This document shows positions 18,411 to 57,435 of a stretch of DNA of 64,000 nucleotides, in pieces. The number at the start of each line of letters is the position of its first letter. Position 1 is the first letter of the stretch. The notes under the pieces are model-generated. The model was given only the letters and a program-made list of their open reading frames with translations, was not told the DNA's origin and did not search any database. Source of the DNA: Meghimatium bilineatum (lineage: Eukaryota > Mollusca > Gastropoda > Stylommatophora > Philomycidae). The translations under genes were made by a program, and so were the position numbers. Where the stretch lies: positions 27,146,093-27,210,092 of the forward strand of contig CM067316.1 in the NCBI GenBank assembly GCA_034231615.1, written 5' to 3'.

Positions 18411-18462
18411 CTCCTATTCGGTATGCACAAAAAATGCACAAGATCTCAAGTAAGAAAGATCT

Positions 18463-19945: not shown

Positions 19946-19978
19946 AGTTCTATTGATAACTGTTTTTTGTATTAACAG

Positions 19979-20176: not shown

Positions 20177-20229
20177 GTGAGAACAATATTGATTTATAAA
20201 TTGGACTCCTAGTTAATATGTCCAACTTC

Positions 20230-20600
20230 ATTGAGTGATTATAAGATGAACTGGCATCATGGGAACTCTGGAAACATGTACTAGTTCTTGTTTTCTTTCA
20301 GAACAATAAAAGGTGTTCCATAAATACTCATCTCGCGGGTCCTTCTGCCAACTAGGTATGTTTATTGTAATAAGCTCAGTGTACCAGTCAGTTGTTGGTT
20401 GTATGTTCATCAGATCTTTTCAGCGAGGACTGACGGTTTTTGTGCAGTTATTACCTGAATAATAATCCAGATAGAATTTAGTTTTTCTGCAGTTGCTCCT
20501 TTCTTATGAGTTTTTCTATCATGCACAGTTTCCTCTAATAGTCTGATAGTATCACAAAGTGATACTGTTTTAGTAGACGACGAAGCCACACCCACAAGCT
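20230..20600 (-). mobile_element. LINE C-terminal fragment
   Basis: TAAGCTCAGTGTACCAGTCA then GTTGTTGGTT and TCATCAGATCTTTTC is a diverged copy of 59235-59300. On the minus strand it gives QQLTGTLSLL against QQLTGALSLYTF there. It is the end of an RNase H-bearing LINE. Confidence 0.6.
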
Positions 20601-20635
20601 ATTTTTAAATCTTAATTGAACCAACTGTGTAGATC

Positions 20636-20760
20636 AGGGGTGCTCAACCTTATCAGACGGCAAGTTCCGCCCACTTGTAATACTGAGTGCGCAAGAGACT
20701 TGTATCAATCATATCATCATCAAACTCATAACCCTTCAGGGTCGTAGGCGTGCCACTCTG
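20636..20760. mobile_element. hAT-like end and LINE tail debris
   Basis: CAGGGGTGCTCAACCTTATC resembles a hAT MITE end. The following CATATCATCATCAAACTCAT with CCTTCAGGGTCGTAGGCGTG reads on the minus strand as a LINE-type end with a TGATGA tail. Confidence 0.4.
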
Positions 20761-21089
20761 CAAACACAAACATAAACAACAAATATTTAGCCGTGACTCT
20801 CTGTTATCAGTTCCTTGTTTGAGTGTGGAGAATCTTAATCCTGTCCATTATTTAATATTGTCATTCCTTGCTTTTCTCCGTCCATTATTTAATATTGTCA
20901 TTCCTTGCTTTTCTCTGTTCCATTTTCTTCTTCAACCCTCTACTGTTCCCTGCAACATTTTTTGGAAAAATAATCGTGCCTCATTTACAGAGATGTGCTT
21001 GTTGGCCTGCTGAGTGTGTATTTTGCTTCTCACGTATATGTTGGTTATGCGCTCTGTATAATGATATTTCAAGAACATATATTATGAGA

Positions 21090-21760
21090 ATCAGGTGTCA
21101 CGTGACGTATTCTCTCCATAACGTTGTCTTCTCAATTAACTCCCTGAACCCTTCTCAGACTTAGGCCATGCAGCTTGCATTTTACAAGGACGTATTCATG
21201 TTATCTTTAATGTTAATCCATCGTCTTCTTGATCTGCTCTTTTTCCTCTTCCCATGTGCTCTGCCCTCCATTCTTTGTCTTTCTAAACAGTTATATCTCT
21301 TATATGATCAAACAGGTGTAGTTATAATTATGCTATTGTATTTAGTAACCAACACTCAGGAATATTAAATGTGTTTATAATATCTGAGTTCCCTCGGTCT
21401 TTCTTTTTTCCTTCCGTGATATTCTAAATGTCTTTCTGTAGTATTTCATCTCAAATGTGTTGATCTTCACTGCCACTTATTTACTAAAGGTCCATGTTTC
21501 ACAGCTGTATGTTGCAACCGGAAAAATACAAGTTCTTAACATTAGCAATTTTTTTAATATTTTGTTGTTTTTCCATATGTTTTTCAATTGCTATTTTACA
21601 ATATTCCATACCAGTATCTAATCTCCTGCATTGCTGATGTTTGCTCCTAACTATTTGAACTTATCCACTCACTCGATCTTGAAATTGTCTATTCTGATGT
21701 TTGGGTGTTGTTATATCTGTTGACATGATTGTTTTATTGGCGCGCGTTTAAATATAAGTT
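21090..21760 (-). mobile_element. LINE RT C-terminal fragment
   Basis: Minus-strand frames read LRTCIFPVATYSCETWTFSK, then INTFEMKYYRKTFRIS. The 3' end is GAATACGTCACGTGACAC. The same end (GAATAYGTCAC) closes the pieces at 38300, 42510 and 61700, so these belong to one family. Confidence 0.75.
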
Positions 21761-21799
21761 TTGTGAATTGTTGTATTTCTTTGTGTTCTTGATTAGTTG

Positions 21800-22285
21800 T
21801 TCCAATACCTTTATATCATTTGAAATAAGATTAGTTCTTGCAATACCTTTATATCATTTGAAAGAAGATTAGTTCTTGCAATACCTTTATATCATTTGAA
21901 AGAAGATTAGTTCTTGCAATACCTTTATATGATTTGAAAGAAGATTAGTTCTTGCAATACCTTTATATGATTTGAAAGAAGATTAGTTCTTACAATACCT
22001 TCATATCATTTGAAAGAAAATTAGTTCTTGCAATACCTTTATATCATTTGAAAGAAAATTAGTTCTTGCAATACCTTTATATCATTTGAAAGAAAATTAG
22101 TTCTTGCAATACCTTTATATCATTTTAAAGAAAATTAGTTGTTGCAATACCTTCATATCATTTGAAAGAAAATTAGTTGCTGCAATACCTTTATATCATT
22201 TGAAAGAAAATTAGTTGTTTTAATACCTTTATATCATTTGAAAGAAAATTAGTTCTTGCAATACCTTTATATCATTTGAAAGAAT
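21800..22285. repeat. 38-bp minisatellite, about 12 units
   Basis: The unit is ATTAGTTCTTGCAATACCTT plus TATATCATTTGAAAGAAG. Two subtypes (ending GAAG early, AAAA late) are grouped, indicating local homogenisation. Confidence 0.93.
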
Positions 22286-22564
22286 CCATAATATATAATA
22301 TGATGAAAGAGAACATGAAAGGGAACGTGAGAACTGACCATATAACTTTAATCAATTCACCATTGACACCCCATCCCGGTACCCTTCCTCTATTATCCTG
22401 GATAGTAATATTATTTATTTCAGTTCGTAAAACAAAGTTTGAATTATAAACACAACACACGATCGGGAGAACTTTTAAATTCGCAACGCGAGAGCATCAC
22501 GTGTCCTTATGTGCTCGTGAACAACTGGTGGAGAATGTCTGGTGTAAAAGATATTGTTGTGTGA

Positions 22565-23590
22565 TTTTGGCTACTGCTGTATGAGTTCTTGTATCATTTC
22601 CCTCGGTTCTAGTACCTGTCCGTGACTGTGGCTAATAATGTATGAGTTCTTGTATCGTTCCCTCGGTTCTAGTACATGCCTGTGACTGTGGCTAATAATG
22701 TATGAGTTCTTGTATCGTTCCCTCGGTTCTAGTACCTGCCCGTGACTGTGGCTAATAATGTATGAGTTCTTGTATCGTTCCCTCGGTTCTAGTAACTGCC
22801 CGTGACTGTGGCTAATAATGTATGAGTTCTTGTATCGTTCCCTCGGTTCTAGTACCTGCCTGTGACTGTGGCTAATAATGTATGAGTTCTTGTATCGTTC
22901 CTTCGGTTCTAGTACCTGCCCGTGACTGTGGCTAATAATGTATGAGTTCTTGTATCGTTCCCTCGGTTCTAGTACCTGCCCGTGACTGTGGCTAATAATG
23001 TATGAGTTCTTTTATCATTCCCTCGGTTCTAGTACCTGCCCGTGACTGTGGCTAATAATGTATGAGTTCTTGTATCGTTCCCTCGGTTCTAGTACCTGCC
23101 CGTGACTGTGGCTAATAATGTATGAGTTCTTGTATCTTTCCCTCGGTTCTAGTACCTGCCCGTGACTGTGGCTAATAATGTATTTCTTGTATCTTTCCCT
23201 CGGTTCTAGTATCTGCCCGTGACTGTGGCTAATAATGTATGAGTTCTTGTATCGTTTCCCTCGGTTCTAGTACCTGCCCGTGACTGTGGCTAATAATGTA
23301 TGAGTTCTTGTATCGTTCCCTCGGTTCTAGTACCTGCCTGTGACTGTGGCTAATAATGTATGAGTTCTTGTATCGTTCCCTCGGTTCTAGTACCTGCCTG
23401 TGACTGTGGCTAATAATGTATGAGTTCTTGTATCGTTCCCTCGGTTCTAGTACCTGCCTGTGACTGTGGCTAATAATGTATGAGTTCTTGTATCGTTCCC
23501 TCGGTTCTAGTACCTGCCTGTGACTGTGGCTAATAATGTATGAGTTCTTGTATCGTTCCCTCGGTTCTAGTACCTGCCCGTGACTGTGGC
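22565..23590. repeat. 60-bp minisatellite, 17 units
   Basis: The unit begins TGACTGTGGCTAATAATGTA and runs through TGAGTTCTTGTATCGTTCCC and TCGGTTCTAGTACCTGCCCG. Copies are nearly identical, so the array is young. The minus-strand open frame (SHSHRQVLEPRERYKNSYII) is repeat-driven. Confidence 0.96.
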
Positions 23591-24074
23591 AGCGTCTGAC
23601 TGTGGCTATGATGTATGAGATCGTGTATGACTCCCTCAGCTCTAGAGGCAGCCAGTCACTAGATTTCCTAACTGTATCATAACATTTGCCCAATGTTTTC
23701 TCTCTGTGCTTGCTTCCACCAATTTACTTCCTATTCTTACTTCTTCTAGCTCACAAACTTTGAGAAGGGTATCTTCTAATTCATGCTCTGATTGAACTCC
23801 TTTACAATCCGACTCTCAATCACAATCACCAATCACAGGAGTCACTTCCGACGCTTCAATATTTAATGCAACATTTCTCCATGTTCAAGATTATATCATT
23901 TTGATGGATCGACCATTTTGAGCGAGATGGTGATTATGTTGTAACTTAAGCAACATTATGTTCTTGTGCTACGCTATGAGATTCTGCGGCATTAAATATT
24001 GGCATGGAATATTGGTTGAAGAATTTCAACAAGCAAAGATAGTATGACAACGTGTATATAAAAGCAAATAATAG

Positions 24075-24355
24075 ACAAGGATATTTTACTCTAGTACAAG
24101 GATATATTTAAAAAAACAACTAGTGCAAGGATATATGAATCTAGTATTATGATGTGTGAATCAAGTGCACGAACATGCGAATATAGTGCAAGAATATGTG
24201 AATCTGGTGCAATAATATGTAAATCTAATGCACGGATATGTGAATTTAATGCAAAGATATATAAATCTAGTGCATGGATATGTGAATTTAATGCAAAACT
24301 ATATATAAATCTAGTGCACGGATATGTGAATTTAATGCAAAGATATATAAATCTA
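24075..24355. repeat. About 21-bp diverged minisatellite
   Basis: Repeated GTGCAAGGATATGTGAATCT-like units occur, with alternating GTGCACGGATATG and ATGCAAAGATATATA forms. Confidence 0.85.
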
Positions 24356-24389
24356 AAAGGAATTTTCTTATCAATATCAGAAAGAAATA

Positions 24390-24610
24390 GTCCACATTTA
24401 TTGACAACGTTCTGAGACGGGGAGATTTAGGAATACAACGTAACAGTGAAATTGAGAGAGAAAAAGAGACCAAACAGCAAAGAAAGAAGATACTGAATAC
24501 TTTATCAACATGGCATGGTAGAAAGTCAACAGTAAAGTTGATACACAGTTCCGCAGATAGTGTTATGAAGATTGATGATTGCCTACTATAACCAGCACAA
24601 CACATGATGA
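24390..24610 (+). mobile_element. LINE 3' end fragment
   Basis: The + frame reads KKILNTLSTWHGRKSTVKLI then HSSADSVMK, matching KLLDGLVSWHSRSSPTELI at 57880 and KILDSLTTWHGKETTTTLI at 34420. A CATGATGATAATG tail follows. Confidence 0.65.
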
Positions 24611-24614
24611 TAAT

Positions 24615-25010
24615 GAAGTAATTGCATCTTTTCGATACGTTGGTCTGGATACTTCAAATTATGTATGTCCACAGTACTACGGACAGGTTGAATAAAAAAA
24701 ATTAAGGGAACAGTCATTTGCCTAAAGGCATCGTATCATATGGAAACAGTAACAGCCGAAGTACAATAATTGACACAAGACGAGGAACACAAAAGTGTTG
24801 AGAAACTAAAAACAATAAAAGCATTTTATAACGGATGTCTACATTTCTTCATCCCATCTGCCGCAGTTCTTGTCAGTCCTTCTTGTATACTTTTATTGAA
24901 AATATTTTTTCGTAGAAATGTTCATTCAGTCTGCACGTGTACAAATTTCGCACTTCAGAATGTTAAAATATCACACCAGTATAAAATTAATTATCATTAT
25001 TTGTTCTGTT
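24615..25010. other. Intronic sequence before exon 8
   Basis: No gene or repeat was recognised apart from the adjacent LINE tail. Confidence 0.4.
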
Positions 25011-25018
25011 CTGATCAG

Positions 25019-25135
25019 GACCAGATGTCCACTCTGGCACGAACTATGAAGGCAACAGTGACCAAAAGTAATATGAAAGAGAAACTCAGGGCGGGATCAC
25101 AATACTTGAACAAACTTCGAAATTTGTCTACAGAG
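25019..25135 (+). CDS. OTOF: Otoferlin-like exon 8: FerA C-terminal helix
   Basis: This encodes DQMSTLARTMKATVTKSNMK, then EKLRAGSQYLNKLRNLSTE. In otoferlin the equivalent is the helical segment ending FLQKLRFLADEPQ. A basic amphipathic helix is expected. Acceptor TCTGATCAG, donor GTGATG (weak at its last positions); phase 0 at both ends. Confidence 0.9.
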
Positions 25136-25854
25136 GTGATGTTTATGTTCTCATTTAACATTGTGATGTCATCATTGGCAATAATGTCCTCTATTCGTTG
25201 TGTGTCCTTTTTGTATCATTTATAGAGTCCTTACACATATTTGAAACACACAGAAAAAGCCATCAACACAGAACTCTTCCACCTCCGACGCCTGTTATAA
25301 AAGAAATATAAACGCATTGTTACTTAAAATGGTCGAAATGTGTATGTGTGTCTTGTTCTGAGGATTTCTAAAGCATTCATTATTGTTTTTAATTTGTTTA
25401 CTAGTTATAACTGGGCGATATTTTTATAAACAGTTATTTGTTTTAGGATTCTGAAAAAGAGTTTAACTACATGTGTTATATGCAACCTAGAGTTTAATAT
25501 GGTTTATGATACTGAAATAGAGTTTCACTACATGTTTTATATGACAATCAATACAAGGTAACTGCGTGAAACGTAACAACAATTATACTTACGTAAAACA
25601 CAGGTTTATATTTCGTTTCAATGGGATACGACAGACTATAACTAAAACTAGTAGGTAATGATGGGAAATGATGAGCACACAAGAAATCATAAAAATTACA
25701 ATACACAAATCACATTCAACGTTTCAACCAAATGGCCTTTATCAAAACACAAACAAAACATCAAAAGACGACGAATGGAATAATTTTCACAACATCCTAC
25801 GGAATCCAACATCCAAAAATATATTTTGTCGAAGATGGATTTTTTTGCGAAAAT

Positions 25855-25985
25855 ATAACAGCGACACAACACATTTCCATTCTCTGGACTACATACTACT
25901 GGAAATCTAATAGTACCATGGAACTGATACATGAGATCTACCGGGAGTTTGAGAATGAACGCGGAAGAAGACGAAAATGTGGTCA
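25855..25985 (-). repeat. Dispersed repeat family A, inverted copy
   Basis: The + strand carries CATTTCCATTCTCTGGACTA, CTACTGGAAATCTAATAG and GGGAGTTTGAGAATGAACGC, the complement of the blocks at 53490-53600. Confidence 0.6.
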
Positions 25986-26052
25986 ACAAATCTATAAAAA
26001 TGCAGTTTTTCGCTCTGAAAATATGAAAAGAAAATTAGGAAGTTTGTTTGGG

Positions 26053-26190
26053 TGAAGGGGGGGGGGGAGTTGGGGAGCATGGTTTAGAATTGTACCTAAA
26101 TCCTTGACAATTTGTTGACTCGATGGGGCTACCACGGTGGAAATTTAAAAAAATTGCTCCCTCCCCCCCCCCCCCAAAAAAAAATGTTGA
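26053..26190. repeat. G-run/C-run inverted pair
   Basis: A run of about 12 G (26055-26066) faces a run of about 13 C (26163-26175) roughly 100 bases away. They can pair in RNA or single-stranded DNA; the flanks match poorly. Confidence 0.5.
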
Positions 26191-26387
26191 CGACTAAACT
26201 GGTTTATCAATAGGTTTATCAATATCTACACATTTTGTCATGGATAAAGGATTTAATGAAGCATATTCCGTGTTTAATCAAGACATTCGGTGTAAGTTCC
26301 CAGTCTAGAAAATCAGGTGAGTATAATGTATGACATAACAAGTACATACACAAGTATATTAAACATATATTTATATCACTTGCGCAG

Positions 26388-26540
26388 CCTCAACATGCGC
26401 TTCCTGATGTGTTTATCTGGATGGTGAGCAATAATAAGAGAATTGCCTACCAACGTATCCCTGCCCGACATATTATCTACAGTATTGTCGATGAGGAGAG
26501 AGGTCAAGACTGTGGAAAGCCTCTGACATTGTTGTTGAAG
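26388..26540 (+). CDS. OTOF: Otoferlin-like exon 9: FerB domain, first part
   Basis: It reads PQHALPDVFIWMVSNNKRIA, then YQRIPARHIIYSIVDEERG and QDCGKPLTLLLK. This is the most conserved block of ferlin FerB (PDVFIWM-SNNKRIAY-R-P). Acceptor TTGCGCAG, donor GTATGT; phase 0 on both sides. Confidence 0.95.
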
Positions 26541-27413
26541 GTATGTTGCTGTATATTGTGTTGAATGTAGAAAGTTTCTGAGCATCAGCAACTACTGACA
26601 GATCAGATGAAATACGCAATCTCACAACTATAGCACATTTCACTAACTTTGTCCAACTTTCAAAATTATTTATCTCAGTAAATATATAACGCATATAATT
26701 GAAATTGCGTGCGTGAATGTTAAATGCTATAAAGTTGTATAAACGCTATAAATTACATTTTTCATTAAAAAGCATTCAATAGTTTTATTTTCATTTTTAA
26801 GATATATCAAAAGTTCTCAACCCACATCTAACACACGTTTTAAAAGATGTTTACAGTCATTTATAAAGCCCCATTTATACATGATTGGATTATCTTACAC
26901 TTGGCACGATTTAATCGTGAAATTGCACTGTTTTGTACTCTTTAACACAAAACAGACGGTGTTTAGGGTTGTATCCGTTGTAGCATGTGAAGTGGTAAAC
27001 CTTTTTTCCCCTTGAGATAAAATAATTAGTAGTCCGGCAAAGATTAATCATTTCATTCGTTTATAAATACTCGACGTGATGCAAAACATGCAAAATATAT
27101 GTTTATAACATCATATGCAAAAAGTGGTTATGTATAATGATTATATATGTTAGATGATTAATCAGATAATTGCATGTGTTTAAGGATAAAGCTAGTAAAC
27201 GCGCTATAAGATTAGTCGCAATTTATCTCTTTTAAAACACGTCTTTTGTCTTGGAAAAATTTTATCTTTAAAAATGTATTTTGCTCATCTCTGGAGTTTC
27301 CTTCTAACTTTGTGTTTTATTAGCTAGAATTGTTCAACTTTTCCTTCTAACTTTGTGTGTCGTTTGCTAGAATTGCTCACCTTTTCCTTATATTAATGTC
27401 TTCTTGCCAATTT
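26541..27413. other. Intronic sequence, nothing recognised
   Basis: AT-rich with no array or coding motif that was recognised. Confidence 0.45.
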
Positions 27414-28776
27414 CCAAGACAAAATATCCCCAGACAAAATATACCAAGACAAAATATTTTTAGGACAAAATATTTCAGGACAAAATATTCCCAGACAAAA
27501 TATACCGGACAAAATATTCTCAAGACAAAATATTCTCAGACAAAATATACTAGACAAAATATTCCAGACACAATATCCCCAAGACTAAATACAAAAATAA
27601 TATATATAGTATTTCATATATAAACTGTAATAAACATTAATGAACAATATAACTAGTAAATATTTATAATAAAGTCTTCAAATGATATGAATTGTCTCAT
27701 ACATGATCCACAAAATTAGTGCTCAGAACACGTGCTATGATTTTGAACAAGTTGATAGGTTCTGCTGGATCGTACCGTGCAATCATGTTTTAATAGCATC
27801 ATCGACACGTTGGTAAACTTTTCATTTCTTTGTTGTTGTTTGACCAGTGGCAATCTGATTTCTCAAAAATACAAATGTATGTTGTTGTTACTGTAACATC
27901 CGGGCAAGTCTTGCTGCTGTTGGATGAGATACGTTCACCATTGAATTAAATGCATTGTGCCAACCTTCAACAGCGTTGTTGCTTCTTGGAAGTTTATTCA
28001 TGACACGATTATGTTGATTCCAAAGGCTCATTGGAAATCGAGACTGCGTACGGCGATCACGATGAATCCGTAAAATGAAGAACATGAGGAAATCCAGGTC
28101 TGAGAATAGATCAGTATTGGTGAATTATTCGAAAACAGTAATGACACCAATTTCTGGAATGAATGTCAAAGTCATCAGTTGTTCGACTGAATAATTTTCA
28201 TCAGAGATGTACAATATCGTTGTGCCCCCAGATTGTTGTATTCGCCAAACATTCTGTCCAAAGTGAAAATAACATCATGATTCTTGAGCTCGTAGAAATG
28301 CACATTCAAAAGCTTTAATTTCAGCTAATTAAAAATCAGTAACTATTGATGGAGCTGCATTTCCGTTACTTCCCAGTTCTTTGATATGCTGAAGCATGCG
28401 GCAGTACATTACTTCACTATGACCAGACAAATGTGCACATAAACATGGGATGACTCGGAATGTCCATCAGAAAACTAATGTCTGCTCTGAAAAATAAAAT
28501 CAACATCTTCCTGTGCTGCAAATGAATGAAATCTGGCTCATTCACACACAGAAGAAGACTACAGTGGACTGTATTTATATATTCATCAATGTGTTAATTG
28601 ATCCTATTTCGCAGAACATGTCTGCAAATATCTTGGGAATATTTTTGTCCAGATAATATTTTGTCTTGGGTTATTTAGTCTGGGTATATGTTGTGTTGGG
28701 ATATTTTGTCTTGGGGATATTTTGTCTGATATATTTTGTCCGGTAGATTTTGCCTGGGAATATTTTGTCATGGAGC
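27414..28776 (-). mobile_element. Decayed MULE-type DNA transposon with tandem-repeat ends
   Basis: The left end (27414-27590) is about 12 tandem copies of a GACAAAATATTCC-like unit. The right end (about 28645-28776) is the same unit inverted (TATTTTGTCTTGG), so the ends form repetitive terminal inverted repeats. Between them a minus-strand protein reads EIKAFECAFLRAQE, CYFHFGQNVWRIQ, FIPEIGVITVFE and LPRSNNAVEGWHNAFNSM. CFFHF-Q--W-K and LPRTNN-VEGWH-AF are hallmarks of MULE transposases. Stops near 28340, 28285 and 28115 break the frame and the N-terminal half is missing. Flanking duplications are not clear. Confidence 0.8.
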
Positions 28777-28849
28777 CTATTTTTTTTTTTTATTTCAATT
28801 CGCAGTTCTCTTATGTACCATGGATTGATATATTTTGTTTACTAAGTGC

Positions 28850-28960
28850 ATTTATAGACTTTGTCTATTCCATGCATTGATAAACTGTGTCTATTCCATG
28901 CATTGATAAACTGTGTCTATTCCATGCATTGATAAACTGTATCTATTACGTGCATTGAGA
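28850..28960. repeat. 26-bp minisatellite, four units
   Basis: The unit is CTATTCCATGCATTGATAAA plus CTGTGT. Confidence 0.88.
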
Positions 28961-29250
28961 GATTTTATTAATTATGTCAATTGATATATTTTGTGTGCTA
29001 TAGTTTATTGAGAATAAGCCACGGCATCCTCTTTCAACCAAAGATAAATACCCATCGCGGCTACATGTGAGTATATGACCATCAAAACATATGGCAATTT
29101 AAAGTTTAGGTTATCCTGTCACACGTACCTGCCATAAGATATATGTTTTGTGGTACTTGGGCTGATCGATGTTCAAAGTGTCTGTGATGGAGACGTCTAC
29201 AGAGAGTTCATCTATAAATGTATAATACTTTCTTACAAATTATATTTTAG

Positions 29251-29443
29251 CTGCCTGGAAAAAAAGCCATGGGCTGTGCAGGTTGGACAATCCAGACCAA
29301 GCTACAGGTGTTCCTTTGGCTAGGCCTGTCCAAGCACAAGAAAGATTTTCTTAAGGGATTACCCAAAGGCTACGAAGAAACGAAGATGTTGAAGCTGGCA
29401 AGCAAACCGTCTGGAGTACCACCTCCTTTTGTACATTACAAAG
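29251..29443 (+). CDS. OTOF: Otoferlin-like exon 10: FerB end and pre-C2D linker
   Basis: This encodes [40 protein letters not shown] and YEETKMLK, then [11 protein letters not shown]. It matches otoferlin LPG-RGF-SAGWTVQAKL and LYLWLGLSKQRKDFL-GLP-G-EE. Acceptor TATATTTTAG; enters in phase 0 and ends in phase 1 before GTGAGA. Confidence 0.95.
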
Positions 29444-29499
29444 GTGAGATGTTGACACTACCCCATCTCATAGAAGATGAAAGTAATCCTAACATATCT

Positions 29500-29610
29500 G
29501 CTTCTTTTTGTGCGTTATATCTCAAACTCCTGCTTATTACCAAGATGTAGTGGAGAGAACGAAATGCGTTGTTTCATAGTTTGCAGTGTGTCTGCAATTT
29601 CTCCTCCTGT
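29500..29610 (+). repeat. Dispersed repeat family A, short copy
   Basis: TCTCAAACTCCTGCTTATTA, GATGTAGTGGAGAGAACG and GAAATGCGTTGTTTCATAGT correspond to blocks of the other copies. Confidence 0.55.
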
Positions 29611-30209
29611 GGGCTTAACACATTCAGACACATCACTTTTTTCGTTGACACTTTTATAGGATAACACAGCCAACTTTACTACAAACATAATTAATTGTAG
29701 TTTAAGACATGCACAGTAGATCATAATGTCGCTATGTTTTGATGTTTCCAGCCTTGACGACGTTATTTTGTAAGCTTGTCTGCATGATTGTTGTATTTCA
29801 TTGATTTCATGCGATTCCCAGGGTTAGCAGAGAACCAGGGTATTAGGAGAAAATGTGCATAAAAGATCTTGAGTCTGATACAGAGAGCTGGATGATAACA
29901 GGAGAAAATGTTCAGAGAAGATAGTGAGAAACTATTTCAGCGAATAATAAGAGAACATGTCCATAGAAGATCATCAGAAACTGAGACTCCACACTGACAT
30001 TTGTTATAGCACAATTAAAGAGGCCAGAAAGTTAAGTTCCTGAACGTGTAGATAAGCATGTTATCTACCAGTACATCAGATTATGCTTGTTTAATCGTGT
30101 ATTTGCATGTCATGTACAGAACAACGTGATACGTTCGCCATGAGTTGTATTTCCTCACATACTGACACACGCTTGTCTTATATACTCATGTATTGTTTGT
30201 TCTTCACAG
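29611..30209. other. Intronic sequence, nothing recognised
   Basis: It contains weak GGAGAAAATGT repeats near 29845-29955 and no coding signal. Confidence 0.45.
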
Positions 30210-30334
30210 AACGACAATCATTCCAGCTCAGGGCTCACATGTATCAAGCTAGACAACTCATAGGATCTGATGCGTCTGGACTGTCGGATCCATTCGCTCG
30301 GATCGCTTTCTCTGACCAAAGCATTGCTACGCAG
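30210..30334 (+). CDS. OTOF: Otoferlin-like exon 11: C2D domain, first part
   Basis: It reads [20 protein letters not shown], then [18 protein letters not shown] and IATQ. This matches otoferlin C2D ([22 protein letters not shown]) and includes the loop-1 aspartates SD and SDP that bind calcium in C2 domains. Acceptor TTCTTCACAG; it enters in phase 1 and ends in phase 0 with GCTACGCAG before GTTAGT. The exon-intron junction is the seed of the 28-bp array that follows. Confidence 0.95.
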
Positions 30335-30940
30335 GTTAGTTTGACAAAGCATTTCTACTCAGGTTAGTTTGACAAAGCATTTCTACGAAGGTTAGTTTGA
30401 CAAAACATGGCTACGCGGGTTAGTTTGACAAAGCATTACTACGCAGCTTAGTCTGATTTCATAATACGCAGGTTAGTTTGTTAAAGCATTACTACGCAGG
30501 TTAGTTTGATAAAGCATTACTACGCAGGTTAGTTTGATAAAGCATTACTACGCAGGTTAGTTTGATAAAGCATTGCTACGCAGGTTAGTTTGATAAAGCA
30601 TTACTACGCAGGTTAGTTTGATAAAGCATTACTACACAGGTTAGTTTGATTAAGCATAATACGCAGGTTAGTTTGATAAAGCATTACTACGCAGGTTAGT
30701 TTGATAAAGCATTGCTACGCAGGTTAGTTTGATTAAGCATTACTACGCAGGTTAGTTTGATAAAGCATTACTACGCAGGTTAGTTTGATTAAGCATAATA
30801 CGCAGGTTAGTTTGATAAAGCATAATACGCAGGTTAGTTTGACAAAACATGGCTACGCAGGTTAGTTTGACAAAGCATTGCTTCGCAGGTTAGTTTGACA
30901 AAACATGGCTACGCAGGTTAGTTTGACAATCATTGAAATT
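30318..30940. repeat. 28-bp array made from an exon-intron junction
   Basis: About 22 units of AAAGCATTGCTACGCAG + GTTAGTTTGAT. The first unit contains the last 17 coding bases of exon 11 and its real 5' splice site; later units repeat both in the intron. Most units keep CAG-GTTAGT intact. Some lose three bases (AAGCATAATACGCAG). Confidence 0.95.
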
Positions 30941-31349
30941 AAGTGAGACAATTTTATCATTTTCGCAGTCTACATAAACATTCAGCTATTGTTTCGATGA
31001 TGCATGACCTGCGAAGATAATTAATTAGGACCCCATTGGCTAAATCTCTGTTATTGTTGGGCTTCAGGTGGTCACTATTTGTTTACTTGGAATAGCATGC
31101 CAAAAATAGTCAAGGCGACTTCAAGTATATAAATAGTGACCAACCAAAACCAAACAATAATTAAAAGACTTAACTAATAAAATCCTAATTAATTCTGTTG
31201 GAAGGTCTTCTATACCGTCAACGGTCTCGGGTTATATGTATGCGTGAATGTAACCATTGAGAAGGTGGCTCTATGATAGTTCCTCTTGTGATTGTGCCTA
31301 GGAGATTCAAAGTAGCTAGTCTTGTTACCTATTCTAACGTTGTATTGTT

Positions 31350-31460
31350 ATATCCAATCCATATGGTGGGTAACTATATATCCAATCCATATGGTGGGTA
31401 ACTATATATATCCAATCCATATGGTGGGTAGGCATAGATGCAATCAATATGGTGGGTAAT
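31350..31460. repeat. About 29-bp minisatellite, four units
   Basis: The unit is TCCAATCCATATGGTGGGTA plus ACTATATA. Confidence 0.88.
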
Positions 31461-31594
31461 TATATATGGAATAATTCTATTCTAGTATTCTGTGTATGTG
31501 CATGTGTGATAAGTAGATAGATATCTCTTTTACGGTGTGTGCGTATATTAATATATTTATGTAGGTAAATAATCTCCTTTAATTACAAAGAACA

Positions 31595-31860
31595 TGTCAT
31601 TACTGTAGAAAATACCGTTACTGTAGAACATAACATTACTGTAGAACATGACATTACTGTAGAACATGACATTACTGTAGAACATGCCATTACTGTAGAA
31701 CATGACATTACTGTAGAACATGACATTACTGTAGAACATGACATTACTGTAGAACATGCCATTACTGTAGAACATGACATTACTGTAGAACATGACATTA
31801 CTGTAGAACATGACATTACTTTAGAACATGACATTACTGTAGAACATGCCATTACTGTAC
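31595..31860. repeat. 18-bp minisatellite next to an exon
   Basis: About 14 units of GTAGAACATGACATTACT, with GCCATT variants at regular intervals. It ends about 40 bases before exon 12. The long minus-strand frames are in-phase repeats. Confidence 0.94.
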
Positions 31861-31900
31861 AATTTAATTCTACTGTATATTTTTCCACAATGTGGCCAAG

Positions 31901-32035
31901 GTGATAGAGCAGACCCTGAGTCCAACATGGGACGAGATGCTGATCATGAAAGAAGTAGTTATGTATGGTCTCTTGGAAGAAATAGTGGATGATCCCCCCG
32001 CCATTGTTGTGGAGATCTTTGATCAGGACAAAGTG
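31901..32035 (+). CDS. OTOF: Otoferlin-like exon 12: C2D domain, middle
   Basis: It reads VIEQTLSPTWDEMLIMKEV, then VMYGLLEEIVDDPPAIVVEI and FDQDKV. It matches otoferlin LNETLCPTWDQML, then DDPPIIVIEIYDQDSM. FDQD supplies the loop-3 calcium-ligand aspartates. The acceptor GTGGCCAAG is unusual: A rather than C/T before AG, with a TTTTTCC tract 15 bases upstream. Phase 0 at both ends; donor GTAAGT. Confidence 0.94.
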
Positions 32036-32224
32036 GTAAGTTGTTAGTTCATGTTTCGTGAGGTCTACGTGTAGCTCATCATTCATTACACTTATCATGT
32101 TGTAGATATTTCATGATTCTTATACATGTCATCATTCAGTGGACATACAGATTCTCTTGTAACATCTATAAAGGTACCATTACTTTGTTTCAGTTGTTTT
32201 TTTTTGTTGAATATTCTCGAAAGT

Positions 32225-32605
32225 TTTCTTTCAGACTGAGAACGTAATCGGCATTTGTGCAATACTTTCTTACCGAGAAGGTAATTGGTAGTTGGGCAAT
32301 ACTTGCTTACCAAGAAGGTAGTCATTAGTTGGGCAATACTTGCTTACCAAGAAGGTAGTCATTATTTGGGCAATACTTGCTTACCAAGAAGGTAGTCATT
32401 AGTTGGGCAATACTTGCTTACCAAGAAGGTAATTACTTTTTGCGCAATATTTTCTTACCAAGAAGGTAATCAGTAGTTGGGAAATACGTGCGTACCAAGC
32501 CAAGAAGGTAGTCAGTAGTTGGGCAATACTTGCTTACCAAGAATGTAGTCAGTAGTTGGGCAATACTTGCTTACCAAGAAGGTAGTCAGTAGTTGGGCAA
32601 TATTT
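32225..32605. repeat. 37-bp minisatellite, ten units
   Basis: The unit is AAGAAGGTAGTCAGTAGTTG plus GGCAATACTTGCTTACC. Each unit carries AAG-GTAGTC or AAG-GTAATC, a donor-like sequence. Confidence 0.93.
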
Positions 32606-32699
32606 TGAGATGCAACCACTTACTTACGAGATTTACATTTCAAGATGAAGTTCCTATTATGCATATCCGTAGATAGTGAGGAAGTGAACTCCCTAGACT

Positions 32700-32955
32700 T
32701 TTGAAGTCAAAACATGACATATAGTACTAGGAAACATAAGCTACAGTACTGAGAAACATGACATATAGTACTAGGAAACATGAGCTACAGTACTGAGAAA
32801 CATGACATATAGTACTAGGAAACATGAGCTACAGTACTGAGAAACATGACATATAGTACTAGGAAACATGAGCTACAGTACTGAGAAACATGACATATAG
32901 TACTAGGAAACATGAGCTACAGTACTGAGAAACATGACAAAGAGTACTAGGAAAC
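32700..32955. repeat. 44-bp dimeric minisatellite
   Basis: Two related 22-bp halves, GAAACATGACATATAGTACT-AG and GAAACATGAGCTACAGTACT-GA, alternate strictly, so the dimer is the unit of amplification. Confidence 0.94.
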
Positions 32956-33304
32956 GTAGAAACAGCGAGTAAAATCCCACCGATTCTGTAATGGTTTTCT
33001 TAAAGAAAGGACACACAGAAAATCCGACGCAGATGAAAGTCCTATTTTGTAGGTAAACTTCCACCTCCCTTACAGTAGAAGTATTTACGGCCCAGCTACT
33101 ATGTGTGGTCACCAGACATTGAGACATTTTGTGTGATTGTTCCCAACAAATATAATTTGATACAGTATACCTCAAAATCCCTTATTAACTGCCATCAAGT
33201 ACAAAGTCCGTTCTTTTAATATTAGAGACTATCTGAGTGAGGAGATGGTCATTTCTGTCTTTGGAAGTGAACATAGATTTGTTATTCAAATACCTACATC
33301 TCGA

Positions 33305-33450
33305 TTTGTGTCCTTCTTCTTCTTTGTTTGTTCTCAAACTCCTGCAGATTAATATGCTGTAGTTCTGAGAACGGAATGCTTTGTGTCTTGGTTTATATCT
33401 TTGATGGGATATCTGCGCCTTTCTGCATGATGTATCTATTTTCAGAGTAG
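33305..33450 (+). repeat. Dispersed repeat family A, copy
   Basis: TTGTTCTCAAACTCCTGCAG, ATTAATATGCTGTAGTTC, AGAACGGAATGCTTTGTGTC and GATATCTGCGCCTTTCTGC match the 14055 copy. Confidence 0.62.
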
Positions 33451-33679
33451 CTTCTTTGTTACTTTGACCCTATATGAGATGGGATAGCAAACTCGATCCC
33501 ATAACCTCCTTAGTCGACTCTTACTACTTGCATGAAAGGTAAAGAGTGTTGCTACTCCTTGCTTCCCTCTCAGACTCCAGATATAGACGGGTGTTATATC
33601 CACCAGGCAGTGGGAAGTTTTTCTTGAAGAATGTTCGAGGTAGAGAAAACAAATACCTACATAGTTTATGAATATCATA

Positions 33680-33960
33680 TGTGATCATATATTCACCATC
33701 ATCCAGTGGTAACACATTTACCTACCTCCAGTTTTGTTGGTGGTTGGTTGGTTGGTTGCTGCTCCAGCGGTCCATGGGCTCATGCCCTTTGTCCCAAGTG
33801 TGTTGTTAAATATACAATTTCTCTGTGGTCATAAATGTACCTACCTCCAATTGTGTTGTTAGATATACCATTCTTCAGTGGTTATAAATGTACCTACCTC
33901 CAATTGTGTTGTTAAATATACCATTCTTCAGTGGTCAGACATTTACCTAGTTTCTGTTGT
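33680..33960. repeat. About 55-bp repeat interrupted by a dispersed element
   Basis: Units with AAATGTACCTACCTCCAATT and GTGTTGTTAAATATACCATT surround an inverted GGTTGG-linked copy (33735-33810: GTTGGTTGGTTGCTGCTCCA then GCGGTCCATGGGCTCATGCC). Confidence 0.75.
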
Positions 33961-34339
33961 CAAATACATCCACATTGTCTTTTAGTGCTAGGAAACGTAC
34001 TGCCGTAAACACAATTTAACATGGAATTTTCTGTAATGGCAGTCACTCGTAATTAAATGCGCACGCATATTTTTAGAATGTTCACTCTGCGCTAACCGTA
34101 TCTCAATATTATGTGTCAGATGAAAGAACACTTGTCGTTTGAGAATGTTCTGTATAGAGAATTGTCTCAGAATAAAATGGGAGATAGACCCTGCATTAAA
34201 AAAGGATGCATGCAAGCACAAAATGATTATGAACATGCTTATCTAGAAGCAGATTACTCTAGAAAATGGTGAAGCCAGAATAATGCAACTTGCTGATGAA
34301 AAACATAATGTATGAAGGAATCAGCATATCATATCATCA

Positions 34340-34560
34340 TCATCAGGTGCCATGCCGGGTGGCGTAGGCGGTCATGGCTCTCCACAGCTCTCTGTCCACA
34401 GTATTATGTATCAAAGTCGTTGTTGTTTCTTTGCCGTGCCAGGTTGTCAAACTGTCTAATATTTTCTCACGTTGTCGCCCTCTGTCTCTGGTGCCTTCAA
34501 TCTTGCCTGTTGTAATTATGTTCTCTAAACCTGCCTGTCTCATGAAGTGGCCAAAAAAAA
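34340..34560 (-). mobile_element. LINE 3' end fragment
   Basis: The minus frame reads IITTGKIEGTRDRGRQREKI, LDSLTTWHGKETTTTLIHN and RAMTAYATRHGT, then stops before TGATGATGATGATATG. It is closely similar to the end at 57840-57995. Part of the tail lies next to a second LINE. Confidence 0.8.
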
Positions 34561-34569
34561 GAAGATCAT

Positions 34570-35580
34570 ATAAAACCAGCATATATCTTCTTCTTCTTCA
34601 ATCAGTTTCCTATGTTCGGAATTATATGCAGGAAGATGGGAAGACCCCCATCATGATTTCAATAGTCTGTAGGAGGTCCGCACGGTTGCCCCACAGTTTC
34701 ACCTTCATATCTGTCTCTTGGGGCCATATTTTAATTCGATTAAGTAATAGAAGAGTGAACATGTCTGCAGAATGTGTTCTGGAGTCTAGGGACACTTTTG
34801 ACATGGGCATTGGTCAGTTTGAACAGCCTACATTTTGTGGAGATGTTCTTGTAATCTACAGTGTCATGTGCAGAGCCTAAAAGTTGTGGTTTTCTGTGCT
34901 ATGCTCAGCTTCAGAATGTGGTCCTGTGGAAAGTTGCTGCCTGTTCTCCGATTCCAATATTTTATTTATTTTCTTGTGATAACAGAGTTTTTTTTGTGAT
35001 GGAGTTGTTCTTTGTGCACCTGCTTTTGCTTGTCAGTCAGCTGCCACATTTCCTGCAATTCCACAGTACTCTGTGATTCACAACAGCAAAACTTGATTGT
35101 TAGCAGACAGGTCATTAAAAAATTATACTGTTGTTTTTGTTATGAGATCTTTAGGTTCATTTTGGATGGTCTGAAGTACTGACCTGTAGTCGCACAAGAA
35201 GACTATATTAGCTCCTTTGAGTCTCTGTTCCTCTAGCGCCTTTGATGCTTCTAAGATTGCTTGTAGCTCTGCTCTGTAGTTTGTTGATAATTTGCCAGTA
35301 GTGATTGAGAGTTTTAGTTTTTGGTGTTTTGTACGTGTATTGGTATCCCAACTCCTCTTTGCTTTATTGCATCCTCTGATGATCCATCTGTGATTATATG
35401 GAGCCATTGTGAACTGGGGTATTGGGTGTCCAGGTGGTGGGTGTTTTTGCCTTGAGAGTAGTAGGAGTTTCCATAGTTTTGTACTCAATGCCTGGGATGT
35501 TAAGTTTTGCAATATATAAGTGATGTGTTTGCGATGTTGTAATAGCTGTTCCCATTCACCCAGATTGTTGCTGGTTACTT
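34570..35580 (-). mobile_element. LINE fragment with RNase H domain
   Basis: Minus-strand frames give an RNase H: WIIRGCNKAKRSW, LSTNYRAELQAILEASKALE and ANIVFLCDYRSVLQTIQNE, then the damaged ITEYCGIAGNVAADWQA (usual form W-x-P-x-H-x-G-x-x-GNE-AD-LA). A C-terminal zinc-knuckle-like tail (about 34930-34760) ends in WPQETDMKVKLWGNRADLLQ. This order is typical of I/Jockey-type LINEs. Stops and lost catalytic residues show it is dead. Confidence 0.78.
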
Positions 35581-35826
35581 ATTTATTGATTTTAATAATG
35601 TGTTTTTTTTAATCGCTAAAAGAAGCTTGGTCTTTTCAGTCGGCTTTTGGTAGTTCATCATTTCTCATGCATATGGTGATGTTTCAGATGTCTAAACTTT
35701 TAAGTCATTGTAATTTTCTTATCCCAACACAAACATACATTTAGCAATATTGCCAAGAGCATTATCAAAAACAGGCAGTAAATGTAATCAACAACTGTGA
35801 GGTACTATGGTTTTTATTGCTTGCAG

Positions 35827-35988
35827 GGCAAATCAGAATTCATTGGCCGAGCTTTATGTAAACCAGTTGTCAAACTAACCACAGAAAATTATGGTCCTCC
35901 AAAGTTTCCACCCAAACTGGAGTGGTGGGATATCTACAGAGGGCCAGATCGAGCAGGAGAGCTATTGGCAGCCTTTGAACTCTTGCAG
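35827..35988 (+). CDS. OTOF: Otoferlin-like exon 13: C2D domain, end
   Basis: It reads GKSEFIGRALCKPVVKLTTE, NYGPPKFPPKLEWWDIYRG and PDRAGELLAAFELLQ. It matches otoferlin GKADFMGRTFAKPLVKM and YRGS-AGDLLAAFELLQ. At the position of the last loop-3 ligand it has glutamate (KSEF) where vertebrate otoferlin has aspartate (KADF). Acceptor TTGCTTGCAG, donor GTATCT; phase 0 at both ends. The following intron is 16.8 kb. Confidence 0.95.
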
Positions 35989-36484
35989 GTATCTATGAAT
36001 ATATATATAGTTATTGTATGACTTGTGTATCAAATGTTTGTTATCAATATTTCTTGGTGACAGTGCCAATATTTTTTATCGAAGCCATATCGTACACGTG
36101 TCAGTCAGTGTATGTGTCACAATTAATTATTCCTGTGCTCTTTATGTATGCATTTGCTTCATCCAAAGTTCTAATTATTTAATACAAAATGTTCTGGAAA
36201 TCAGTCCAACCAAAAGTAATTTCTTAACACAAAAAGTGCCAATATAGTCGCAAAAGCAGTATATACATTAGTAGTGTTCGATATATTCAACATCACATTA
36301 CTTTAGCCTTGTTTTGAGTTCATGGGCCAGTACTACGCGTTTCTATGTTTACTTTTGCCAAATAAGCGAGTAGGGTTTACGTCAAGCTGTACTTTTTGAT
36401 CCAAAGGAAATTAGCCTTCCCATGTTTCGTTCTAAATGTTGTGAGTGTTAAGTCAGAACTCTAGCGACTGAGATCTTATTCTGA

Positions 36485-36612
36485 GCTCGCTCTCTTATAA
36501 CCAACACGAAAGTTCGTGTGATTTCCGGGAGCTTTAAGTACATTGCGCTGTTTCACATCAGAGCTGCGTTATGTGCCGCCTTCCCGCCCAGCACATCCGT
36601 TTTTGGCATAGT
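36485..36612 (+). repeat. Dispersed repeat family B, copy 2
   Basis: ATAACCAACACGAAAGTTCG, TGTGATTTCCGGGAG and CAGCACATCCGTTTTTGGCA match 15955-16105. Confidence 0.7.
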
Positions 36613-36964
36613 AACTGAGATAATCGCACATTCATTCAAATACATGCAGTGCTTCTGGCGTAACAGTGAACCTGCGACTGTTTAATCTGATGAGTTTTCA
36701 TTGATATCATCCACTTTTCTTACTTTCTTTTTTTTCTTACTTTCTTCCACTTTTCTTACTTTTTTACTTACTCGATTAAAACTAATTCTGTTCCATGTCA
36801 TCTAATAATATCGTTAATTTCTGTTGTTTCGTGTAGATATTGTTTTTTTTATAATCCATGTCTTTTGTAACTGATTTTCTACCTATTTCATATTACAAAC
36901 TGTGAGTAGAGTGTAGTCTACTTTATTGTTTAAAGTTGGTGCGCATAGCAAAAATATCGTTTTG

Positions 36965-37192
36965 CTGAATGTTCAACCATATATACTATTCTTAAATGTT
37001 CAACCATATATACTATTCTTAAATGTTCAACCATATATACTATTCTTAAATGTTCAACCATATATACTATTCTTAAATGTTCAACCATATATACTATTCT
37101 TAAATGTTCAACCATATATACTATTCTTAAATGTTCAACCATATATACTATTCTTAAATGTTCAACCATATATACTATTCTTAAATGTTCAA
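36965..37192. repeat. 27-bp minisatellite, left part
   Basis: Nine nearly perfect units of AAATGTTCAACCATATATAC plus TATTCTT. The same array resumes at 38320 after 1.1 kb of transposon sequence. Confidence 0.95.
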
Positions 37193-37252
37193 TGGCCAAA
37201 GGGCATAAGCCCATGGACCGCTGGATCAGCAGCCAACCCACCAAATGTGTAA
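37193..37252 (+). repeat. GGTTGG-linked dispersed repeat, copy 4
   Basis: GGCCAAAGGGCATAAGCCCA then TGGACCGCTGGATCAGCAGCC starts exactly where the 27-bp array breaks off. Confidence 0.75.
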
Positions 37253-37254
37253 CC

Positions 37255-38318
37255 ATATACACTATCCAAGATATAACATCACAACAACAAAAAATCAGAA
37301 TAAACAATACCGAGATAAAGTGTGTGTATAAATTAGAATACTTAGAAGCAAACATCAATGGTGCAGGAGACTGCATGGCATAGATAAGGAAGAGATTGGC
37401 AATAGCATTGGAAAATAGCACTCTTGAAAAACAACAAAATAAAAATGAAACTGCTAATGCTAATATCTTTTTCTTATTCTTCCGGTTGCAACATACGGCT
37501 GTGAAACATGGATCCTAAGTAAATCAGCGGGAAAGAAGATCAACGCCTTTGAGATGAAATGCTACAGAAAGATGCTAAGAATATCATGGAAGGCATTAGG
37601 TATTAGATATGTTGATTATACTCCACGCACTCTGGCCACGTCCAATGGTAATCTCCACTTCAGAAAATCTTTCAGGGTATAACGGCTGATTTACCGATTC
37701 TATGTTGGTTCACTGCTCTTTATGAAATCTTTGTCAGGTGTTCTCTATGTGTCACGCTCATCCTTACTCCAATTTCGCGCATTCTCGATATTGACTCATG
37801 CACATTTCTCTCAAAATCGTCTGATCGTGCAGAATCACGAAAAACAATGAGTATGTCTGCTTGGTCCATATGATGACCTATGTTATGGTGCCGACATTCT
37901 CTAAATGGTCTGCTCGTTCGTTTTCCTACACACCCGCGTGTCCGGGAACAAAGATAAGCGTGAATTTTCGTAATAATGCCCGTATTTTAGCTCGGGCATG
38001 GAGGGTAAAAAAATAGAAACTCAGATATTATAAACACATTGAAGATTCCAAGAGGGTTGATTACTAAACACAATAGCAAAAAGAAAACCATTCCTGTTTA
38101 ATGATATAAGAAACACAACTGTTTAGAAAAACAAATAATGGAGGACAGATTACCTGGACGGAGAGGACAGGGCAGACCAAGAAGACGATGGATTGATGAC
38201 ATTAAATATAATACGAATACAACGTTGGAAAATTCAAACCGCATGATTTAAGACAGAAAGGTTAAGGGAGTTCATTGGGAAGACAACGTTCTTGGAGAGA
38301 ATACGTCACATGACACAC
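37255..38318 (+). mobile_element. LINE fragments splitting a minisatellite
   Basis: At 37480-37590 the + frame reads TYGCETWILSKSAGKKINAF then EMKCYRKMLRISW, an RT C-terminal motif. At 38130-38300 it reads MEDRLPGRRGQGRPRRRWID then DIKYNTNTTLENS and ends GAGAATACGTCACATGACAC. The 37620-37990 block between them is in neither frame; its minus strand reads ECRHHNIGHHMDQADILIVF, possibly a piece of another element. Confidence 0.7.
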
Positions 38319-38319
38319 A

Positions 38320-38760
38320 TATTCAACCATATATACTATTATTAAATGTTCAACCAAATATACTATTATTAAATGTTCAACCAAATATACTATTATTAAA
38401 TGTTCAACCAAATATACTATTATTAAATGTTCAACCAAGTATACTATTCTTAAATGTTTAACCAAATATACTATTCTTAAATGTTCAACCAAATATACTA
38501 TTATTAAATGTTCAACCAAATATACTATTATTAAATGTTCAACCAAATATACTATTATTAAATGTTCAACCATATATACTATTATTAAATGTTCAACCAT
38601 ATATACTATTATTAAATGTTCAACCAAATATACTATTATTAAATGTTCAACCAAATATACTATTATTAAATGTTCAACCAAGTATACTATTCTTAAATGT
38701 TTAACCAAATATACTATTCCTGAATGTTTAACCAAATATACTATTCCTGAATGTTTAACT
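38320..38760. repeat. 27-bp minisatellite, right part
   Basis: About 16 units of AAATGTTCAACCAAATATAC plus TATTATT, mixed with a few of the ATATAC and TATTCTT types found on the left side. Confidence 0.95.
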
Positions 38761-40880
38761 ATTGTTCAATGTTCAATTATAAAATCATAAAATAATTGAA
38801 GTAATCGTGCAAAGAAAGTTTACTAATCATCGATTATTGAATGTGTAGACACCCACTGATATATCCCATCACAGTGTTAGTACAATATGAACGGCTGGTT
38901 TCTAACCACGAGATGAGTTGGTGAGGCAGTCTCAGTAGCCACTCTTCCAACTTACAGATTTTATATGTTTACTTTCACCAAATTGTACTTGTTTTAAACA
39001 CAATTATGTTACTAAATAGTAAATATTTTAGATTGTCAGATTGTATTTAAAAATATGTACTTAGACTTTTTGAGTCATGAACTTTTTGAGTGTTTGACGA
39101 GGACACATTTATAGCTCAAATGAATGGAACGTTTCGTATCCCCACTTCCTCTTGATCGAATGCTGTGACATCGCTTATAAACTGTTCAGTAGATGCTAAA
39201 TACAGAATATAATATATTATTGATTCCAGTTTGTGCTAACACATACGTTCAGTTGTTTTTACACTAATTCTTATATATTAATGTTGGGATTTTTCAATGT
39301 TATGAGTTTGTTGACCTTGTTATTTTGTTTCATTTTAATTTCATCAGTTTTTAATTCATCATACTGTCATAAGCCATTGCTTCTGTCTTTATATTCCTAT
39401 TAACCACCAAGTAAATTTGCTTTATGAGTTCAGTTTGTGTACCTCTGTATTGTATGCTTTTCTTGATTAAGCTCTTTTAATAAAAATGCTGATTCAATCT
39501 GTTTCGTGTCCGTCAATAACATTACTTATCTGCTTTGTGAAATTCAAACATTACTTAGATGGACTTATCTGCTTTATAAAATTTAAGATTCATCTACTTA
39601 AGTTATTTTCATCTCGAAGGGCTCAACAGATTTAAAAGATTGACTTTCCTGTACTCGGGTTTCTCCACGTATACTTCACCCCTCTCAATGAAGCGGCATG
39701 CAGCTGTCGAGAGTACCACTCATATACGTAACTGCTTAGCTTCCAACGATAATTTCCAGGGATCTGGAAAAACATTCACTTTGTATACAAGCTGTCACAA
39801 GTTCTGATTTGAATTCGTGACTTCTTGAGCACAAAGTGAGCAGCTTAACCACTGCAATACAACGATCGCCTTTTTCACCTATTGGTCTTAACAACAATTT
39901 TCTAATTTACACTTGAGTGGGATCCGTTCTAAGTGGGAGCAATCTGACATAACATATATATATGTATAATCTCTTCTCTGCTCCTGTTTATATTGTATTT
40001 CTAATAGTGATATTATTTCTGATTATTTTAAATAGAAACCCTTCCAGGAAACAGATTTGAATGCTGCGTATAGGACGCCACCCTACGCTCGAAAGTCAAT
40101 ATTACCGGTATCCTCAATAACATTTCGTTTCTATCTTTTAGTCTTGTTTATATTTTTCTCACTGCGATTGAAATAAATGGTACTTTTTTTTTCTTCACTT
40201 CATTTCAGAACACATTATTTTATTATACTGTTTTTTATTTTAATTTATCAGTTATGATCTGTTTACTCATTTATTTTAGTCCAAGTAAAGATCGAAAGTA
40301 ACACATAAACAGCATTACGCGTAAATGTTCGTGTTTCAGCTATCAGTTCGCTTACGACGTCCTAAAACGTAGCACGTCCTTTCTTATAAGATTAAAAAAT
40401 CAAAGATTTGATAGAACAGTGTTGGGCAACCATTTTGTGTCGGCCAGTCGGCGTCTAAATCCTTTTTTTTAGTCCTTTGAATCTCAAAATAGTGTTTTCG
40501 TAGCTCTGGTGCCAATGCAAATTGTAGTTTTAGATCAGTCTAGAGGGCAATAAAAATGTACACAGAGTTGGACTTTGCCCGTAGATCCCATATTTTACCC
40601 ACCACTGTGATACAACAATAAAGCAAGTGACATTGCATTGATACTGACATGGATCTAAATTAAAGTGCTTATACTCTGGTATACGTAATTTAAAGACGAG
40701 TTTCTTTAAAATAAGAGGAGTAATTTCAAGCAAAATAGACGATAACTTAGATACCATAGGATTCATAGCACGAAAACTATTCTAATAAAGATAATATTAT
40801 AGTAGAAAAACAATACTAGAAGGGAAATTTTAAAAACAAGTAGACAAAAATTGAACAACGTCCGTTCAGCTGGCAAAGCT
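38761..40880. other. Intron interior without recognised genes
   Basis: AT-rich sequence. A tRNA-like SINE relic lies at about 39785-39870 and a hAT-like end at 40420-40460 (GTTGGGCAACCATTTTGTG). No ferlin peptide occurs here, and exons 13 and 14 join directly in otoferlin. Confidence 0.5.
39785..39870 (-). repeat. tRNA-like SINE relic
   Basis: On the minus strand TTGCAGTGGTTAAGCTGCTC resembles an A-box region and GAATTCAAATCAG a B box about 30 bases later. The arms do not pair well enough for a functional tRNA. Confidence 0.4.
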
Positions 40881-40884
40881 TAAA

Positions 40885-41100
40885 GATTATAGTAGGTAAG
40901 CTTTTATAGTGGGGAAGATATTCTCATATGTAAGCTATTCTAGTGTAGACGATATTCTGATAGGTAAACTTTTCCAGTACCTTTCTGTACTTCTGATAGG
41001 GGAAGCTATGCTAGTAGGTAAGCTATTCTAGTAGGGAAGCCAGGCAGGCAGGCAGGCTATTCTAATAGGTAAGGTATTCTAGCAGTTAATCTATTCTAGT
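40885..41100. repeat. 17-bp minisatellite, left part
   Basis: Diverged units of AGTAGGTAAGCTATTCT, with a short CAGG run near 41041-41056. The array continues at 42525 beyond a LINE. Confidence 0.85.
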
Positions 41101-57434: not shown

Positions 57435-57435
57435 A

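Follow-up and report, generated by a model that had tools for sequence, protein, structure and literature searches.

An otoferlin-type gene in the window

The window, by which we mean the whole stretch of 64,000 bases that was analysed (36.6% GC by base counts), carries an otoferlin-type gene on the plus strand, of which 15 exons are recognisable (Table 1). These exons were located with a human otoferlin query. When spliced in silico they yield 785 residues with no stop, and this product aligns over residues 1-778 as a single stretch to solved otoferlin (9qe2), with an E value of 3.5e-297, and contains the Pfam domains FerB and C2. Confidence is lower for the start of exon 1 and the end of exon 15 than for the inner junctions: the coordinate given for the former is where the alignment starts, with the acceptor probably lying three bases further on (CAG/GGC), and the latter has no following exon to serve as a check. 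All 15 exons are richer in GC than their flanks to some degree, as is evident for exon 10 (49.6% versus 37.0% and 36.7%).

Exon 10 is flanked by introns of 766 and 1566 nt, and the tandem array that is the subject of this report is situated at its donor. Its join to the next exon is in phase 0 and yields ...SIATQ/VIEQT..., which aligns with SQCTE/VLNET in otoferlin without a gap. Because adjacent otoferlin residues are encoded on the two sides of this join, the exon should end at the first copy of the array (30334/30335), and the array itself should be intronic. From this protein alignment we infer that copy 1 is the donor in use.

The acceptor of intron 10 (TTTTCCACAATGTGGCCAAG, positions 31881-31900) is the only one of 14 acceptors that ends in AAG, and it ties for the fewest pyrimidines among them (11 of 20).

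Table 1. Coordinates of the gene, the junction array and other features of the window (slashes mark splice junctions; TRF, Tandem Repeats Finder)
Feature	Position	Strand	Basis or remarks
15 recognised otoferlin-like exons, span	3857..61369	+	alignment, in silico splicing
Tenth recognised exon, 125 nt	30210..30334	+	ends ...SIATQ, phase-0 donor CAG/GTTAGT
28-bp junction minisatellite, 22 copies	30318..30944	+	consensus AAAGCATTACTACGCAG/GTTAGTTTGAT; copy 1 taken as the true junction
Intron 10, 1566 nt, carries the array	30335..31900	+	junction assignment
Next exon (exon 11 of the recognised set), VIEQTLSPTWDEM...	31901..32035	+	acceptor GGCCAAG/GTG
Second, weaker junction array with 2.8 copies of a 26-bp unit	6858..6931 (or to 6947)	+	TRF score 79 (random maximum 70)
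Intron 12 comparison array, 17-bp unit, AG/GTAARC-like sites, away from junctions	42522..44283	+	TRF, U1 pairing
Likely retrotransposon remnant	41333-41671	+	Pfam RVT_1 just under cut-off (29.3 versus 29.6 bits); matches solved reverse transcriptase
Likely retrotransposon remnant	35123-35578	-	no Pfam family matched
Likely retrotransposon remnant	about 57430-57990	+	judged by eye

A minisatellite built from an exon-intron junction

Tandem Repeats Finder reports 22.0 copies of a 28-bp unit at positions 30318-30926 (period 28, 89% matches, score 903), and direct reading carries the array on to 30944 through a final unit that is partly diverged. Each unit combines 17 exonic bases with 11 intronic bases. 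Direct reading also yields 22 donor positions, running from 30335 to 30917, that are separated by 17 steps of 28 bp, three of 27 bp and one of 25 bp. The nine-mer CAGGTTAGT (CAG/GTTAGT) is exact in 19 of the 22 copies, with deviations in copy 3 (AAG/GTTAGT), copy 4 (CGG/GTTAGT) and copy 5 (CAG/CTTAGT). GTTAGT is intact in 21 copies and AG/GT is carried by 20, the exceptions being copies 4 and 5.

A first-pass annotation of this DNA had proposed a 28-bp unit repeated about 22 times, with the junction itself as the first unit and with CAG-GTTAGT retained in nearly all copies, and it had remarked that the spliceosome is thus presented with a ladder of near-identical donors. The present data agree with this description: the repeat contains a genuine donor, as far as the gapless protein join shows, and most of its copies resemble functional donors. 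That annotation had placed the array at 30318..30940, which gives the correct start but falls slightly short of the end of the last, partly diverged unit. It had also identified the correct exon as the one with the repeated donor, but had called it exon 11, whereas it is the tenth recognised in the window and not certainly exon 11.

Variation among the copies gives some indication of how the array may have grown. In a 22-copy alignment, the edge copies (1-4 and 19-22) carry C at the last column of the unit and copies 5-18 carry T, whereas another column is mixed, with G in copies 1, 4, 10, 15 and 20-22. Judged from that single clean column, both edges seem to retain the base of copy 1, and the central copies resemble a more recent block that has been homogenised. 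When compared with all 15 exons and their 40-base flanks, the unit aligns with the end of exon 10 for 55 bases, and its only other match is 11 bases long, in exon 12. Copy 1 is most likely the founder of the array because it is the only copy under coding constraint.

Recursive splice sites consist of a pyrimidine-rich acceptor directly before a donor. The five of 22 copies examined do not fit this description, as the 20 bases before their donors hold 8-10 pyrimidines, compared with 11-15 in the 14 real acceptors of the gene.

Only the first donor preserves the protein

Use of copy 2 as the donor would shift the reading frame and lead to a stop 117 nt beyond the true junction. Use of any of copies 3-22 would place a TAG in frame 30 nt beyond the junction, and this also applies to copies that lengthen the exon by a multiple of three. 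An early stop is therefore encoded downstream of 21 of the 21 additional donors, and only copy 1 keeps the protein. The earlier expectation that a downstream copy would break the frame unless the number of added units is a multiple of three is thus incorrect. The accompanying suggestion, that accurate choice of the first copy must matter, points to a real puzzle, but the architecture of the locus fits a published exon-definition rule.

In 19 of the 22 copies, pairing with the 5′ end of U1 has an identical energy of -8.2 kcal/mol, and donor strength therefore gives copy 1 no advantage. We also considered whether the decoys might be masked by RNA structure, but this idea was rejected, as the exon and array together are predicted to fold less stably than 20 of 20 shuffled sequences (z +3.9). 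PMC6002489 cites a U1 footprint of 35 nt, of which 23 nt lie upstream and 12 nt lie downstream. Given the 28-nt spacing of the array, neighbouring copies should not be bindable together, and a computation from this spacing and footprint allows at most 11 footprints at once, with copy 5 left out.

Selection of copy 1 would agree with a rule of proximity across the exon (exon definition), which PMC9225289 describes for human genes and for minigenes that carry two donors, as compared with 22 copies here. Five of five minigenes of that study, which combine long introns with a pair of identical donors (CAG/guaagu), used the upstream donor exclusively, and the upstream site is also preferred in human events whose donors are nearly equal and whose introns are long. 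The minigenes resemble the present locus in having donors of the same strength after one exon with long flanking introns, and differ from it in carrying two designed sites in transfected cells, versus 22 natural copies that are mostly CAG/guuagu. The genome-wide counts of the same study are less one-sided than its minigenes: before donor strength is equalised, the downstream donor is preferred in ~60% of the 4,171 human events and in each of the four intron-size classes, and once it is equalised the upstream donor leads in only 60% over all classes. PMC9225289 further reports that the larger exons are skipped when both donors are weakened. For two comparable donors, PMC6002489 states that the intron-proximal one is favoured, for a reason that is not known.

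Other tandem repeats and mobile elements

Tandem repeats with a period of 10 or more form 52 merged arrays that cover 17,540 of the window's 64,000 bases (27%), and an array as such is therefore ordinary at this locus. A second, weak array contains the donor of exon 2 (GAT/GTGAGC, 6859/6860) and begins 2 bases upstream of it; it is possible that this 26-bp array is another, weaker example of the same kind in the same gene. In total, two of the 15 donors lie inside arrays (those of exons 10 and 2), compared with none of the 14 acceptors of exons 2-15. Considering 14 donors and the 48 arrays of the gene span, two arrays start between -30 and +5 of a donor, versus 0.31 expected by random placement (P 0.035). 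We do not claim on this basis that junctions are a hot spot for arrays, because the interval was set post hoc and one of these arrays is weak, with 2.8 copies.

When array units were compared with the exons and their 40-base flanks, long matches were found only for the exon 10 array, the exon 2 array and an AT-rich array at 3793-3852, which ends a few bases before exon 1 and so falls within its flank. The other matches between units and exons span 8-20 bases and were taken as chance.

Intron 12 (16.8 kb) provides a useful comparison. Its 17-bp array (Table 1) comprises about 84-103 copies by TRF with donors resembling AG/GTAAGC or AG/GTAAAC, and at 46 of its GT sites the pairing with U1 is as strong as at the exon 10 donor or stronger. 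As this ladder is situated at no recognised junction, donor-like ladders evidently arise and persist in the gene without one. The same intron holds two arrays with nearly the same 27-bp unit, at 36968-37192 and 38322-38759, or ~1.1 kb apart, and perhaps one unit seeded both. Table 1 also lists three likely retrotransposon remnants. A search of the window gave no Rfam matches at the gathering score and no ARAGORN matches. An exact 26-base pattern had 0 matches in viral_contigs, and a protein pattern had 8 in genome_contigs with no relative among them, although animals are outside the intended scope of both collections.

Resemblance to amphioxus mirages

Arrays that straddle an exon-intron junction were reportedly first described by Canestro and others in 2002. 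In amphioxus they are termed ‘mirages’ and are reported for Adh3, the globin genes BflGb6 and BflGb9 and troponin C, with similar repeats in PGBD5 (PMC3087553; PMC3902484). The units measure 10-72 bp in Adh3 and 150-160 bp in BflGb6, two haplotypes of which carry 3 and 6 units (PMC3087553; PMC3902484). As presented in these papers, the data on Adh3 and the globins suggest that regular splicing is undisturbed by the mirages, and the boundary copies of the BflGb6 mirage are described as excluded from homogenisation (PMC3087553).

The array of exon 10 shows all four structural features of mirages that can be tested with sequence. The unit extends across an exon-intron boundary, with copy 1 at the junction; its length of 25-28 bp is within the 10-160 bp range reported in PMC3087553; many but not all copies carry AG/GT (20 of 22); and the centre looks homogenised with the boundary copies left out, a pattern that is clean in one column only. 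Like the amphioxus arrays, it is minisatellite-like, and use of the authentic junction would keep the protein. The host gene differs, as do the 28-bp unit and the 22 copies, and the likeness is one of structure only. Among the literature matches listed, mirages are treated only in PMC3087553 and PMC3902484, both of which concern amphioxus.

A further parallel comes from human segmental-duplication genes, for which PMC2812944 reports internal tandem repeats with units of ~30 bp on average, some at exon-intron boundaries. Those repeats are likewise minisatellites, but they average ~4 units, half lie in coding exons, and the boundary repeats can form novel introns and alternative transcripts, whereas the array described here is intronic and any exon extension into it leads to a stop. 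The repeat type is already known from amphioxus, and the present case is a clean and extreme one rather than a new phenomenon.

Origin of the array and alternative explanations

We consider it likely that the array is a mirage that arose by duplication of the junction, with copy 1 selected through exon definition and the other copies tolerated as decoys. Under this model, a tandem duplication of the exon-intron junction would have seeded a minisatellite that grew into the intron. Copy 1, as the putative founder, would have been held in place by coding and splicing constraint while slippage or unequal exchange multiplied its unit, and the middle of the array would subsequently have been homogenised, with the edge copies retaining the founder's base at one column. 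Because exon 10 (125 nt) lies between long introns, its acceptor would be expected to pair across the exon with the nearest donor, which is copy 1. Use of any of the other 21 copies would produce a premature stop, and such transcripts would probably be cleared by nonsense-mediated decay. The array is most likely a tolerated by-product.

Alternatively, the ladder might be selected for, either as a U1 snRNP platform that aids recognition of a donor whose T at +3 is unusual or as a guard against premature polyadenylation in the intron. The exon 10 donor is indeed alone among 15 in having T at +3, its nine-mer is exact in most copies, and the nine donor columns average 0.33 minority letters per column versus 2.26 elsewhere (3 of 198 variant cells, compared with 43 of 418 in the remaining 19 columns), although column constancy is a description and not a test, given that the copies are non-independent. 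However, the constant block reaches into the intron: of the 28 nine-column windows, three that lie two to four columns further into the intron vary less than the donor, and one varies equally little. Nor is pairing of the +3T donor weak, since its -8.2 kcal/mol falls within the range of -4.4 to -9.6 across the donors of the gene, and donor-like ladders are also present away from junctions in intron 12. The enhancement by extra donors that is cited in PMC6002489 concerns the effect of upstream sites on a downstream one, which is the reverse of the layout here. Selection for the ladder is not supported by any clear sign, and we regard a function of this kind as quite unlikely. A similarly small probability is assigned to the idea that downstream copies are used at times, forming a valve for unproductive splicing whose length varies between individuals and which tunes the amount of ferlin. 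Such a valve would need the stop that follows each of the 21 downstream copies, and amphioxus mirages are reported to be unstable in length (PMC3087553), but most random intron extensions soon meet a stop and exon definition predicts little use of the downstream copies (PMC9225289). It is very unlikely that the array operates as a length-polymorphic splicing dial, wherein the register of U1 occupancy and the copy number would set the use of stop-bearing donors and hence the amount of ferlin.

Highly improbable, in our view, is the possibility that the intron itself goes back to an AGGT proto-splice site that was duplicated in tandem, with the array as its remnant. The unit does contain AG/GT in a duplicated stretch, as the proto-splice model described in PMC2891723 needs, and an origin of introns from mirages is proposed in PMC3087553. 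However, that model also calls for a common origin of the two ends of the intron, and none was found: the acceptor GGCCAAG/GTG is unlike the unit, and comparing the unit with exon 11 plus 40 bases on either side produced no match at E <=1. The low pyrimidine counts before the donors of the five copies examined point in the same direction. Because the acceptor is unrelated to the unit, the array should not have made the intron by proto-splice duplication. An assembly artefact or chance similarity is the least credible account. Although assemblies can misstate the copy number of an array, the copies in the 22-copy alignment differ among themselves by substitutions and small indels, and in 20 first-order Markov sequences of 64 kb each, with the neighbour frequencies of the window, TRF reported 7 rows in all and a top score of 70. 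Chance is thereby excluded as the origin of the similarity among copies.

Implications

The locus constitutes a natural extreme of a designed experiment, in which 22 near-identical donors are spaced ~28 nt apart and the first alone keeps the protein. It offers a natural test of whether proximity across the exon suffices for the first donor to be chosen when many equal ones follow. Variants of array length between individuals, if they exist, would provide a dose series for this purpose. Moreover, a host other than a cephalochordate, if true, would mean that the mirage phenomenon reaches another lineage.
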